A DNA stretch of 64,000 nt from Pseudomonas putida (GTDB lineage: Bacteria; Pseudomonadota; Gammaproteobacteria; Pseudomonadales; Pseudomonadaceae), in the NCBI RefSeq assembly GCF_001976065.1, contig NZ_MNAH01000012.1:1-64000 (forward strand). Reading direction: 5' to 3'. Positions 23,320-26,832 of this stretch are shown here, piece by piece. The notes under the pieces were generated by a model. That model was given only the letters and a program-made list of their open reading frames with translations. It had not been told where the DNA came from and did no database searches. The position numbers and the translations under genes were made by a program. Every line of letters begins with the position of its first letter. The stretch's first letter is position 1.

Positions 23320-24405
23320 ATGACCATCAGTGACGCACTGCATCGTTTGCTTCTCGACAACCTGACCACCGCCACCATCCTGCTCAATGCCGACTTGCGC
23401 CTTGAGTACATGAACCCCGCGGCGGAAATGCTCCTGGCCATCAGCGGCCAGCGCAGCCATGGGCAATTCATCAGCGAGTTGTTCACCGAATCCACCGAGG
23501 CGCTCAACTCATTGCGCCAGGCGGTGCAGCAGGCACATCCGTTCACCAAGCGCGAAGCCATGCTCACCGCCCTCACCGGCCAGACCCTGACGGTTGATTA
23601 CGCGGTAACGCCGATCCTGAGCAATGGCGACACCCTGCTCCTGCTCGAAGTGCACCCCCGGGACCGACTGCTGCGCATCACCAAGGAAGAGGCCCAGTTG
23701 TCGAAGCAGGAAACCAGCAAGATGCTGGTGCGCGGCCTGGCCCATGAAATCAAGAATCCCTTGGGCGGTATCCGCGGCGCAGCGCAGTTGCTGGCCCGTG
23801 AGCTGCCGGAAGAAAGCCTGCGCGACTACACCAACGTCATCATTGAAGAGGCCGACCGCCTGCGTAACCTGGTCGACCGCATGCTCGGCTCGAACAAGCT
23901 GCCCTCGCTGGCCATGTGCAACATCCACGAAGTGCTGGAGCGTGTCTGCCACTTGGTCGAGGCCGAAAGCCAGGGCTGCATCACATTGGTGCGTGACTAC
24001 GACCCGAGCATTCCGGACGTCCTGATCGATCGCGAACAAATGATCCAGGCCGTGTTGAATATCGTGCGCAACGCGATGCAGGCCATCAGCAGCCAGAACG
24101 AGCTGCGCCTGGGCCGCATCAGTCTGCGCACCCGCGCCATGCGCCAGTTCACCATTGGCCACGTGCGCCATCGCCTGGTGACCAAGATCGAAATCATCGA
24201 CAACGGCCCGGGCATTCCTGCGGATCTTCAGGAAACCATCTTCTTCCCCATGGTCAGCGGACGTCCGGATGGTACCGGGCTGGGCCTGGCCATTACCCAG
24301 AACATCATCAGCCAGCACCAGGGCTTGATCGAATGTGACAGCCACCCCGGCCACACCACGTTCTCGATCTTTCTGCCACTGGAACAAGGAGCCACATCGA
24401 CATGA
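23320..24405 (+). CDS. ntrB: Nitrogen regulation sensor kinase/phosphatase NtrB
   Basis: NtrB phosphorylates NtrC when nitrogen is short and, bound to PII (GlnB), dephosphorylates it when nitrogen is plentiful. The 361 aa soluble protein has an N-terminal PAS domain (about 5-110), a HisKA domain with the phosphoacceptor His142 in RGLAHEIKNPLGG, and an HATPase domain with the N box (VLNIVRNAMQA, about 245), G1 (DNGPGIP, about 290) and G2 (GTGLGLAITQ, about 325). It lacks membrane segments, as expected. AGAGG precedes the ATG. It overlaps ntrC by 4 bp, giving coupled expression. Confidence 0.97.
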   Translation: MTISDALHRLLLDNLTTATILLNADLRLEYMNPAAEMLLAISGQRSHGQFISELFTESTEALNSLRQAVQQAHPFTKREAMLTALTGQTLTVDYAVTPILSNGDTLLLLEVHPRDRLLRITKEEAQLSKQETSKMLVRGLAHEIKNPLGGIRGAAQLLARELPEESLRDYTNVIIEEADRLRNLVDRMLGSNKLPSLAMCNIHEVLERVCHLVEAESQGCITLVRDYDPSIPDVLIDREQMIQAVLNIVRNAMQAISSQNELRLGRISLRTRAMRQFTIGHVRHRLVTKIEIIDNGPGIPADLQETIFFPMVSGRPDGTGLGLAITQNIISQHQGLIECDSHPGHTTFSIFLPLEQGATST

Positions 24406-25838
24406 GCCGTAGTGAAACCGTGTGGATCGTCGATGACGACCGTTCTATCCGTTGGGTCCTGGAAAAAGCCTTGCAGCAGGAAGGCATGACCACGCAAAGC
24501 TTCGACAGCGCCGATGGCGTGATGAGCCGCCTGGCGCGCCAGCAGCCGGACGTGATCATCTCCGACATCCGCATGCCCGGTGCCAGCGGCCTGGACCTCC
24601 TGGCGCGGATTCGCGAGCAACATCCACGGCTGCCAGTGATCATCATGACCGCGCACTCCGATCTGGACAGCGCTGTCGCGTCCTATCAGGGCGGCGCCTT
24701 CGAATACCTGCCCAAGCCGTTCGATGTCGACGAGGCGGTGTCCCTGGTCAAGCGCGCCAACCAGCACGCACAGGAACAGCAAGGCCTGGAAGTCCCGGTC
24801 GCACTGACCCGCACCCCGGAAATCATCGGCGAAGCGCCGGCGATGCAGGAAGTGTTTCGCGCCATCGGGCGCTTGAGCCACTCCAACATCACCGTGCTGA
24901 TCAACGGCGAATCCGGCACCGGTAAAGAACTGGTGGCCCACGCCCTGCACCGCCACAGCCCGCGGGCCGCTTCGCCGTTCATCGCACTGAACATGGCAGC
25001 GATTCCCAAGGACCTGATGGAATCCGAACTGTTCGGCCACGAAAAAGGCGCCTTCACCGGTGCCGCCAACCTGCGTCGCGGGCGTTTCGAGCAGGCAGAC
25101 CGCGGCACGCTGTTCCTTGATGAAATCGGCGACATGCCGGCCGACACCCAGACCCGTTTGCTGCGAGTCCTGGCCGACGGCGAGTTCTACCGGGTCGGTG
25201 GTCACGTCCCGGTCAAAGTCGATGTGCGGATCATCGCCGCCACGCACCAGAACCTGGAAACCCTGGTGCATGCCGGGAAATTCCGTGAAGACTTGTTCCA
25301 TCGCCTCAACGTCATTCGCATCCACATACCGCGCCTGTCGGACCGTCGCGAAGATATCCCGACCCTGGCCAAGCACTTCCTCAGCCGTGCCGCGCAGGAG
25401 CTGGCCGTCGAGCCCAAGCTGCTGAAAACCGAAACCGAGGAATACCTGAAAAACCTGCCATGGCCGGGCAACGTGCGCCAGCTGGAGAACACCTGCCGCT
25501 GGATCACCGTGATGGCTTCGGGTCGCGAAGTGCATATCAGTGACCTGCCACCGGAGCTGCTGAGCCTGCCGCAGGATTCGGCGCCGGTGACCAACTGGGA
25601 ACAGGCGCTGCGCCAATGGGCCGACCAGGCGCTGGCTCGCGGTCAATCCAGCCTGCTGGACAGTGCGGTGCCGACCTTCGAGCGGATCATGATCGAAACC
25701 GCTCTCAAGCACACCGCCGGCCGCCGCCGCGATGCCGCCGTCTTGCTCGGCTGGGGGCGTAATACCCTGACTCGCAAGATCAAGGAATTGGGAATGAAGG
25801 TTGATGGTGGGGATGATGATGAGGGGGATGAGGGTTAA
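24402..25838 (+). CDS. ntrC: Nitrogen regulation response regulator NtrC
   Basis: A sigma-54 enhancer-binding activator. The 478 aa protein has a receiver domain with acidic pocket DDD (11-13) and phospho-acceptor Asp55 (SDIRMPG), an AAA+ domain with Walker A GESGTGKE (about 168), the sigma-54-contacting loop GAFTGA (about 217), Walker B (TLFLDEIGDMP, about 240) and an arginine-finger region, and a C-terminal Fis-type helix-turn-helix (RRRDAAVLLGWGRNTLTRKIKELG). The short Asp/Glu/Gly tail after the helix-turn-helix is a little unusual but outside the fold. Its start codon lies within the ntrB stop overlap, with AAGGAG upstream. It should activate glnA and the RNA gene just downstream. Confidence 0.98.
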   Translation: MSRSETVWIVDDDRSIRWVLEKALQQEGMTTQSFDSADGVMSRLARQQPDVIISDIRMPGASGLDLLARIREQHPRLPVIIMTAHSDLDSAVASYQGGAFEYLPKPFDVDEAVSLVKRANQHAQEQQGLEVPVALTRTPEIIGEAPAMQEVFRAIGRLSHSNITVLINGESGTGKELVAHALHRHSPRAASPFIALNMAAIPKDLMESELFGHEKGAFTGAANLRRGRFEQADRGTLFLDEIGDMPADTQTRLLRVLADGEFYRVGGHVPVKVDVRIIAATHQNLETLVHAGKFREDLFHRLNVIRIHIPRLSDRREDIPTLAKHFLSRAAQELAVEPKLLKTETEEYLKNLPWPGNVRQLENTCRWITVMASGREVHISDLPPELLSLPQDSAPVTNWEQALRQWADQALARGQSSLLDSAVPTFERIMIETALKHTAGRRRDAAVLLGWGRNTLTRKIKELGMKVDGGDDDEGDEG

Positions 25839-25881: not shown

Positions 25882-25971
25882 TGTGGGAGCGGGCTTGCTC
25901 GCGAAGAGGCCATCACATTCAACCTCCATGTTGAATGGGACACCGCTTTCGCGAGCAAGCCCGCTCCCATA
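25882..25971. repeat. REPIN-type inverted pair after ntrC
   Basis: TGTGGGAGCGGGCTTGCTCG and its complement enclose a middle with CATTCAAC / GTTGAATG pairing. Same family as 3555-3644. Confidence 0.88.
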
Positions 25972-25983
25972 TTCAGGGCCGAG

Positions 25984-26000
25984 TGCACCGCACCAATGCA
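25984..26000 (+). promoter_or_regulatory. Likely NtrC enhancer site for the nrsZ-like RNA
   Basis: TGCACC-GCACC-AATGCA matches the NtrC consensus TGCACC-N5-GGTGCA except for AA in place of GG. Two more GCACC half-sites lie at 25999 and 26019. It is about 150 bp before the -24 element of the sigma-54 promoter, a normal enhancer distance. Confidence 0.6.
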
Positions 26001-26078
26001 CCGTGACCCGCAATCGCGCACCGCGACTGATCGCAAATTCCGCGTACGTTCGCAATCGAACCCCTATCGAAAAAACAC

Positions 26079-26103
26079 GAAAGCCCCGGATTCCGGGGCT
26101 TTC
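26079..26103. terminator. Hairpin terminator after ntrC
   Basis: GAAAGCCCCGG and CCGGGGCTTTC form a perfect 11 bp stem around an ATT loop. A and T runs flank it only weakly. It separates ntrC transcription from the RNA promoter at 26144. Confidence 0.72.
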
Positions 26104-26143
26104 AACGTCTGCAGACGACTTTCTGTTTCAACTTGTTAAAACC

Positions 26144-26159
26144 TGGCACGCCCCCTGCA
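26144..26159 (+). promoter_or_regulatory. Sigma-54 promoter of the nrsZ-like RNA
   Basis: TGGCACGCCCCCTGCA fits the consensus TGGCAC-N5-TTGC with the required GG-N10-GC spacing (26145-26146, 26157-26158), differing at one T. The start should be near 26170, immediately before a hairpin AGTGAT-TCAG-ATCACT (26171-26186). Confidence 0.85.
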
Positions 26160-26169
26160 ATAGTCTCAT

Positions 26170-26394
26170 CAGTGATTCAGATCACTACCCAGTTTCGGGG
26201 ACCTTGGTACAGGCAGGCCGGGGATTCCCCTCTTTACACCGGGCTCACACCGCATAGCGACGAGCCCCCCAGTTTTGGGGTCCTTGGTACAGGCAGGCCG
26301 GGGATTCCCTCTTTACACCGGGTTCAGGCGCGATGCGTGAACCCTCCCGTTTTGGGGACCTTGGTACAGGCAGGCCGGGGATTCCCCTCTTTTA
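26170..26394 (+). ncRNA. nrsZ: NrsZ-like nitrogen-regulated small RNA with three repeated modules
   Basis: Three direct repeats of about 48 bp start at 26188, 26268 and 26346, spaced 78-80 bp. Each has a hairpin (CCCCAGTTTTGGGG in module 2), the invariant unpaired segment CCTTGGTACAGGCAGGCC, then GGGGATTCCCC and TCTTT. The linkers between modules form their own hairpins (GGGCTC/GAGCCC and GGGTTC/GAACCC), and the third module ends in TCTTTT as a terminator. In P. aeruginosa the sRNA NrsZ follows ntrC, is induced by NtrBC with RpoN, and is processed into three similar modules, the first of which acts on rhlA. Position, promoter and three-module layout all match, so I assign it as the homologue; ends are estimated and the target here is unknown. 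Confidence 0.87.
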
Positions 26395-26832
26395 TTGCTC
26401 CCGGAGATGGATCTCCAGCCGCCAGCGGTCATCGACCTCGCTGCCGGTCCACTCCCCCTGCAGGGGCCGGGCTGCCACCAGCGTCAGCAACAACCCCCCA
26501 TCACTCAAACGCACGCGCCAGTTCACGTCCTTGTCGTGGAGCTTTAGCTGGCCCTTCCGTGCCGCGCCTTGAGCCTCGAACAGCAACGCTACGCTACCCT
26601 CGACGATCTCGCCGTGGGTCTTGGGTTCGTTGTTGAACCACACCACCAGTCCGTCGCCGGTCACCTCGACCTGCTGCAATTGACTGGGCTCGGGGGTGGT
26701 CAGGCGACCGATCATCAGCCCCACCATGACTCCGACAATCGCCAGTGAAGCCATCACACGTGGGAATAGTTTCGAACGAGGGTCGGCTTGCGGCGTAGAA
26801 TGCCGCTCATCTTTACCTTCGGAGCCGTGCAT
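26392..26832 (-). CDS. Hypothetical membrane-anchored protein
   Basis: A 146 aa protein of unrecognised family. After a polar N-terminus comes one hydrophobic helix (VMASLAIVGVMVGLMIG, about 26-43) and a C-terminal domain of about 100 aa rich in predicted beta strands (VEVTGDGLVVWFNNEP..., VRLSDGGLLLTLVAARPLQGEW, RWRLEIHLRE), probably in the periplasm. The given ATG overlaps the trmL start codon on the other strand, and a possible trmL -10 lies within its first codons, so the true start may be further in (Met27 is an option). It converges with the nrsZ-like RNA. Confidence 0.68.
   Translation of the reverse strand: MHGSEGKDERHSTPQADPRSKLFPRVMASLAIVGVMVGLMIGRLTTPEPSQLQQVEVTGDGLVVWFNNEPKTHGEIVEGSVALLFEAQGAARKGQLKLHDKDVNWRVRLSDGGLLLTLVAARPLQGEWTGSEVDDRWRLEIHLREQ

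Follow-up and report, generated by a model that had tools for sequence, protein, structure and literature searches.

Several Pseudomonas RNAs carry repeated motifs, among them CrcZ/CrcY and RsmY/RsmZ; CrcZ is also under the control of a two-component system, and CrcZ and RsmZ act as protein decoys. These RNAs titrate proteins, whereas the reported action of NrsZ is on rhlA mRNA, and the comparison with them made here goes through an Rfam scan of the window (the whole stretch of 64,000 nt analysed, from Pseudomonas putida contig NZ_MNAH01000012.1) alone. Excerpts of two reviews describe NrsZ as made in Pseudomonas under nitrogen shortage, place it between ntrC and PA5126, and give main forms of approximately 40 and approximately 140 nt in PAO1, the first 60 nt being functional (PMC8395346, PMC9308961). 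The loop motif ACAGGCAG is reported in an excerpt of one of them (PMC9308961) and, in P. aeruginosa, is linked in the excerpts to rhlA, the outcome being more rhlA translation (PMC8395346, PMC9308961). NfiS and NfiR of P. stutzeri A1501 are, like NrsZ, nitrogen-related RNAs of pseudomonads, but according to the excerpt available they act on nitrogenase genes, and NrsZ is cited there as a separate RNA (PMC6606865); they are set apart here by description.

The locus that follows ntrC in the window is, on the evidence of covariance-model matching, nrsZ, and thus an added member of the family of a Pseudomonas regulatory RNA that has already been described. The Rfam NrsZ model (RF02695) matches 26186–26403 over its full length (1–236 of 236) with 147.9 bits and E 2.6e-37, about twice the family cut-off of 76.9 bits. 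NrsZ and two tRNAs were all that the Rfam scan of the window returned, and one NrsZ was found in the 6.96 Mb genome. A sequence-only reading of the same DNA had proposed an NrsZ-like RNA right after ntrC and had named a covariance search as the check; the full-length match upholds the identification, and a TIGR01818 equivalog match directly upstream upholds the position. The gene order found is ntrC, nrsZ and a convergent gene that is of the PA5126 type by position, and the locus has repeated hairpins with the loop ACAGGCAG (three module matches) and, as read from the sequence only, a sigma-54 promoter with NtrC-type sites upstream. Because the place after ntrC, the sigma-54 site, the NtrC-type sites and the loop agree with published NrsZ, they support this reading. 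The features of the locus are as follows.

24402–25838, + strand: ntrC, response regulator and sigma-54 activator (TIGR01818 equivalog, 790.1 bits, cut-off 558.6; Sigma54_activat and HTH_8 domains)
25984–26000, + strand: NtrC-type dyad 1, TGCACCGCACCAATGCA, 9/10 scored positions
26004–26020, + strand: putative NtrC-type dyad 2, TGACCCGCAATCGCGCA, weaker; the second block found to be conserved when 23 chosen upstream regions were aligned
26144–26158, + strand: putative sigma-54 promoter TGGCACGCCCCCTGC, sole exact match to TGGCACG-N5-TGC in 64 kb
26171–26186, + strand: 5' hairpin AGUGAU-UCAG-AUCACU, from +1/+2; covariation in 26 leaders, one clade on the ntrC tree
26190–26237, + strand: NrsZ module 1 (module model R1, 69.4 bits; Rfam NrsZ), loop ACAGGCAG at 26209–26216
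26241–26267, + strand: spacer hairpin 1, −12.8 kcal/mol
26270–26317, + strand: NrsZ module 2 (R1, 64.9 bits), loop at 26289–26296
26320–26344, + strand: spacer hairpin 2, −16.2 kcal/mol
26347–26394, + strand: NrsZ module 3 (R1, 71.4 bits), loop at 26366–26373, terminal U-run, probable terminator
26392–26832, − strand: convergent 146-aa gene in the place of PA5126, an open frame with a homologue at the same place in many relatives

The likeness to P. aeruginosa NrsZ, as far as the review excerpts describe it (RF02695; PMC8395346, PMC9308961), extends to the place, the sigma-54 and NtrC-type sites, the loop and a similar length. Three modules are present here and also in G511, the best-scoring genome for NrsZ (259 bits). 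The window differs from P. aeruginosa NrsZ in that an insertion of approximately 13 nt adds a hairpin at +1, and from G511 in that the core begins 64 nt past the promoter start, compared to 50 in G511, and the internal U-runs are shorter; no close rhlA was found in the window genome.

The convergent 146-aa gene matches no Pfam or NCBIfam family, and its equation with PA5126, next to which NrsZ is placed in the review excerpts (PMC8395346, PMC9308961), is by position. Its stop codon (26392–26394) lies within the terminal U-run of nrsZ. Beyond this frame is a TrmL-type gene (216.2 bits, below the NCBIfam cut-off of 282; SpoU_methylase in Pfam), and the order ntrC, nrsZ, convergent gene, TrmL-type gene is kept in many relatives. 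The gap between ntrC and nrsZ also contains a leftward terminator-like hairpin (26078–26104; 12 pairs followed by TGTTTTTT on the minus strand) that is shared by most of the 23 aligned relatives. Transcription running on from the convergent gene could end there, once it has produced an antisense RNA covering the whole of nrsZ, which is a possible form of antisense control. REP-like inverted repeats of the GGGAGC..GCTCGCGA type lie in the same gap (25882–25971) and past the TrmL-type gene (27301–27390).

The three repeats of approximately 48 bp at 78–80 bp spacing that the sequence-only reading described are present as direct repeats of 47 nt each, starting at 26189, 26269 and 26346 with spacings of 80 and 77. 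The module model R1 (48 nt, 12 pairs), which was built from 33 modules of 27 loci including the three in the window, matches the window exactly three times, and no further match up to E 1 was found over the 6.96 Mb genome. A single module consists of 12 pairs, the 8-nt loop ACAGGCAG and a 2-nt bulge on the 3' side, and is followed by CUCUUU. The invariant segment had been placed between two hairpins, but this did not hold: CCUUGGU is in the 5' arm and ACAGGCAG is the loop of the same hairpin and, as each module is one hairpin, the segment is part of the 5' arm plus the loop.

UACAGGCAGG is invariant in a model-based alignment of the best 150 of 228 module matches (from 79 chosen loci), though this invariance arises partly by selection because the aligned modules were chosen for score; in 11 of the weakest 17 matches the loop is changed or shifted, often at its first bases. 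In the stem, five of the 12 pairs change on both sides, which none of 500 shuffles reached, and eight cells are doubly changed, at least as many occurring in 75 of the 500 shuffles. The covariation score is higher when the partner is shifted by +3 (0.208, compared to 0.183 unshifted), yet only 56 % of cells then pair as opposed to 94 %. The loop is predicted to be unpaired with a mean probability of 0.98 in isolated 43-nt modules and 0.75–0.89 in the whole RNA. The fold of the whole 231-nt RNA has an ordinary energy (z −1.24; 22 of 200 shuffles did as well), and in the minimum-energy fold pairing takes place between modules. Whole-RNA folding was rejected as evidence on this score and, hence, the structural case rests on the single modules and on covariation. 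Family membership, anatomy, conservation and covariation are established for this nrsZ.

There was no sign of homogenisation of modules within arrays, mean identity being 0.808 within 108 arrays and 0.801 between genomes at the same position. In the seven-module array of L002, an inner pair alternates between A-U and G-C from the second to the last module. Several loci of genus g12 (L055–L061 and L065) carry an extra ACAGGCAGG that lies not in the usual hairpin but in the spacer directly behind module 1, and by eye this copy is changed in L062, L063, L064 and L067; the motif may be usable without its hairpin.

Both the sigma-54 promoter and the upstream NtrC-like site proposed earlier were recovered, the first as the single exact pattern match in the window and the second as two NtrC-type dyads upstream of it. 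When two mismatches were allowed, TGGCACG-N5-TGC was found 101 times in the window against 118.6 expected and, as there is thus no enrichment, the case for the promoter rests on the exact match and on its conserved place. Counting from GG (−25/−24) and GC (−13/−12), +1 is predicted at approximately 26170. The 220 nt upstream of the promoter were scanned for TGCAC-N7-GTGCA in 205 loci, and the best match has at least nine of the ten letters in 83 loci, compared to 1.7 expected from single-base shuffles, although the loci are related and so not independent. The site starts 158–160 nt before the promoter start in 53 of these 83, as does dyad 1 of the window. Related upstream blocks occur in other groups (the P. 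putida group, for example, has two dyads in tandem) but, among the alignment rows listed, not in all groups.

The conservation of promoter and modules was examined in 238 loci, of which 119 had been picked by a pattern that includes promoter and core and 119 were taken regardless of the promoter. Promoter and intact core are jointly present in 231 (213 unique); among the loci taken regardless of the promoter, 112 pass and seven fail. No sigma-54 site was found within the 70 nt read in L110. Some loci in which ntrC was not detected within the 1.7–1.9 kb taken, for example L109, likewise have a single module with its own sigma-54 site.

Of 398 genomes drawn from the genus, 389 have an NrsZ match with E 0.001 or better and 274 have one above the cut-off; in the family, matches with E 0.01 or better occur in 86 of 138 genomes drawn, representing 14 of 19 genera. 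At the level of the class NrsZ was found in two of 274 genomes drawn, this genome and G411, both from the same family; the large genome searches used stricter filters, with which weak matches are lost. A scan of an 84,980-species collection for the promoter and core pattern produced at least 120 stretches, and is hence a sample. One match from an archaeal bin (L258) was taken as chance and dropped. Two stretches labelled Pantoea sp. Cy-639 (L254) and Paucimonas (L236) are typical Pseudomonas nrsZ leaders, and these labels look wrong because both fall among the P. putida, P. entomophila and P. soli tips of the ntrC tree.

The 213 unique loci contain from one to seven modules (one in 81, two in 24, three in 66, four in 22, five in 14, six in 1 and seven in 5). 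The range is unchanged in the 110 unique loci taken regardless of the promoter (36, 7, 37, 14, 10, 1 and 5 loci, respectively), where long arrays are over-sampled because approximately 30 of the 110 are best-scoring genus matches. Worn modules were missed by these counts because an exact TACAGGCAGG was required; among those missed are the second module of L068 and that of L203, which carry GTTCAGGCAGG, and copies with ACCAGGCAGG in L038 and L044. Enough ntrC sequence lay upstream in 122 of the 213 loci to build a tree of this gene, on which Fitch parsimony requires 37 changes in module number. Judged from these comparisons, the loop and the promoter are kept while module number, spacers and 5' end change fast.

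The spacers between modules form stable hairpins whose sequences are unrelated, and 240 unique spacers of at least 25 nt, from related loci, have a mean fold z of −2.84. Behind the stem, the longest run of T has length 3 for 223 of 313 internal modules but 4 for 104 of 131 last modules and for 73 of 80 single modules; the P value for internal versus last modules, 3e-22, overstates the difference since the modules are related. In the window, UUU follows modules 1 and 2 and UUUU follows module 3, whereas all three modules of G511 end in UUUU. Because the internal U-runs tend to be shorter, the modules resemble terminator hairpins of which all but the final one are weakened; in many species, the last module looks like the terminator and the internal ones like weakened copies of it. 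The short NrsZ forms could therefore come partly from termination at each module, beside RNase cleavage, such that one start gives RNAs of one, two and three modules. The U-run often weakened in internal copies would favour this, as would the functional first 60 nt described for PAO1 in the review excerpts (PMC8395346, PMC9308961). However, the same excerpts describe the short species as processed (PMC8395346, PMC9308961), and at least the form of approximately 40 nt requires cleavage, being shorter than the approximately 65 nt that separate +1 and the first U-run. The grading is also not universal, being absent from G511, the genome that matches NrsZ best; the length of the last run may owe something to its overlap with the convergent gene's stop codon, and a terminator scan of the window listed none of the three modules. 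Partial termination is for these reasons a tentative and rather doubtful contributor. The 40-nt form could correspond to a 43-nt stretch that runs from UUUCGGGG to CUCUUU, and the AGUUU that precedes many stems resembles an RNase E site.

The hairpin that had been noted at the predicted start is present one base past it (26171–26186). The core begins 47–51 nt past the promoter start in 168 of the 213 loci and 63–66 nt past it in 42, including the window; L207, one of these 42, has a leader duplication in place of the hairpin, and in L117 the distance is 70 nt. The insertion, approximately 13 nt relative to relatives, looks by eye like an inverted duplication of a pre-existing ATCACT. Among 26 distinct leaders, which include two misfits to this hairpin (L010 and L117), 83.3 % of hairpin cells are paired, the innermost pair being missing in 20. 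Both sides change in three of the six pairs, which 39 of 500 shuffles reach, and the 13 doubly changed cells and the covariation score of 0.176 were each reached by none of 500. On the ntrC tree the common form makes up one clade of 36 tips (local support 0.81), and hairpin presence changes four times. Other stems occupy the same place in three tips outside this clade, namely GAGCG/CGCTC in L010 and L037, which share one stem sequence but form no clade of their own, and TGAGC/GCTCA in L117. As read from these alignments, the 5' hairpin is an insertion confined to one clade and shows compensatory changes, with unrelated hairpins in its place in three other tips. The leader of L259 (P. azerbaijanoccidentalis SWRI74) is identical to that of the window.

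The 5' hairpin sequence could instead be a DNA binding site that controls the promoter, with no role in the RNA. Its sequence in the window matches the dyad form GTGA-N6-TCAC, which resembles a CRP/Vfr site, and in the 26 leaders the GTG/CAC pairs are near-invariant while the innermost pair is mostly gone. The outer pair, however, goes from A-U to G-C in nine of the 26, more double changes are found at two inner pairs, and unrelated stems take the same place in L010, L037 and L117. This reading is very improbable. RppH and RNase E usually act more slowly on a triphosphate end that is folded into a hairpin, and the likeliest role of the 5' hairpin as an RNA element is probably protection of the 5' end. 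Neither a clade-specific 5' hairpin nor graded U-runs were met in the excerpts of the NrsZ literature searched, and a literature search for NrsZ together with modules gave matches that appear, by title, unrelated to the subject.

It had been suggested that rhlA may be absent from this strain group and, as far as a search with a threshold of E 1e-20 or better goes, this was correct: RhlA at 63–67 % identity was found in 11 of 59 genus genomes searched, whereas the only match in the window genome is 43 % identical. In G511, the rhlA leader includes TTGCCTGT at −33, an 8-nt loop complement with one G-U pair, which is consistent with the published effect on rhlA. The last 110 nt of the 11 genus RhlA leaders contain no intact loop complement and one weakened near match (TTGCCTGC in L335), and a target in rhlA conserved in the genus is thus disfavoured.

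A new NrsZ target was sought in this genome and its relatives; none was established, and exact anti-loop patterns yielded none that was convincing. The exact anti-loop CTGCCTGTAC occurs at 20 places in this genome (11 for the backwards control), of which three are nrsZ itself and the other 17 mostly lie inside long coding frames, one of them at codon 16 of a gene that we take to be hpt. In 12 genomes, the anti-loop CTGCCTGT beside GGA/AGGA and ATG gave 102 and 62 matches (forward and reverse counts together), of which at least one of each kind is nrsZ itself, compared to 27 and 6 for the pattern backwards; this is not a fair control, since genes favour CTG-rich letters. Among the few recurrent cases inspected, the rejected candidates include the start of a polyamine-type ABC permease gene, where CTGCCTGT at −23 in nine of 13 close orthologues has a variable last T and is accounted for by upstream-gene codons for Ala-Cys-Leu, and a presumed lapD-like start and ttcA-like site, which fall on amino acids with common codons.

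The best candidate found is phaG, which is a weak but testable guess. The 43 % RhlA relative is presumably PhaG, judging by sequence features; its NCBIfam matches are all below cut-off, and Pfam assigns an alpha/beta hydrolase. Its leader in the window genome has GCCTACCTGT at −67, complementary in nine of ten letters to ACAGGCAGGC of the loop. Among 39 genus homologue loci with <60 % identity to RhlA, 38 had a 300 nt leader (L376 was dropped), and these possibly include other rhlA relatives, such as L339, L340 and L345. GCCTGCCTGT with at most one mismatch is present in 27 of the 38 leaders and GCCTACCTGT in 25, 23 of them at −66 to −72; one of 1500 permuted 10-mers performs equally well. Against phaG, a site of this kind occurs in 11 of 600 equal-length stretches of the window, 122 of 500 shuffles equal the duplex energy, and the leader sites are inherited together. 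In 24 further loci (17 of them from other genera, one locus being rhlA itself), a site with one mismatch is at that place in two (L378 and L381); in other genera the phaG leader block drifts whereas the NrsZ loop does not, and the block may be a promoter element. Perfect anti-loop 8-mers (CTGCCTGT) lie upstream of phaG-like genes in L359 (one) and L370 (two), and many relatives of these have CTACCTGT at that leader place.

In P. putida, nitrogen limitation raises phaG, also in an rpoN mutant though less so, and polyhydroxyalkanoate (PHA) accumulation is independent of RpoN, according to an excerpt (PMC7801951) in which the word NrsZ is absent; in P. aeruginosa, rpoN deletion inhibits phaG expression, again from an excerpt (PMC9049629). 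These data would fit a link between NrsZ and phaG but have other explanations. The literature search, limited to excerpts, returned no paper joining NrsZ to phaG, and a review of post-transcriptional control of PHA synthesis (PMC8401924) was not among the NrsZ-containing papers in the matches listed. A broader proposal is that phaG is the older and wider target of NrsZ, directing carbon to polyhydroxyalkanoate such that nitrogen shortage leads to carbon storage, that rhlA in P. aeruginosa is a later target, inherited or re-made, and that one to seven modules with graded internal terminators tune the loop dose in each species; we regard this as speculative and unlikely to be right as a whole.

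Induction, processing, pairing, dose and protection are what we infer for this nrsZ. Under nitrogen shortage, phosphorylated NtrC would bind the upstream dyads and drive RpoN polymerase from 26144 to give an RNA of approximately 225 nt that begins with the short hairpin, which probably protects the 5' end. Three near-identical hairpins would follow, each with the loop ACAGGCAG exposed and a pyrimidine-rich tail behind it. Cleavage between the modules or partial termination behind them would release short RNAs that pair via the loop with mRNA leaders, the loop being the working part and the module number setting the dose. Variable numbers of near-identical hairpins with an invariant loop would also suit a protein decoy, the loop then acting chiefly by binding protein rather than by pairing, and an excerpt places NrsZ in an Hfq cross-linking study in P. 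aeruginosa (PMC6890931). However, the G511 rhlA leader contains a loop complement, and pairing with the rhlA leader is reported in a review (PMC8395346). The modules include no A-rich Hfq/Crc motif and their GGA stretches lie within stems. An action chiefly through protein binding seems very unlikely. Taken whole, nrsZ with the mechanism proposed for it is almost certainly the best explanation of the locus.

The identity, control and loop of NrsZ were already known, and the finding itself is ordinary, while the comparative pattern is modestly interesting. It offers a comparative system for an RNA whose function, in the literature excerpts seen, is reported in P. aeruginosa, and opens the questions of how loop number relates to regulatory strength, whether termination or cleavage makes the short forms, and whether it is carbon storage, rather than rhamnolipid, that NrsZ mainly targets outside P. 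aeruginosa.
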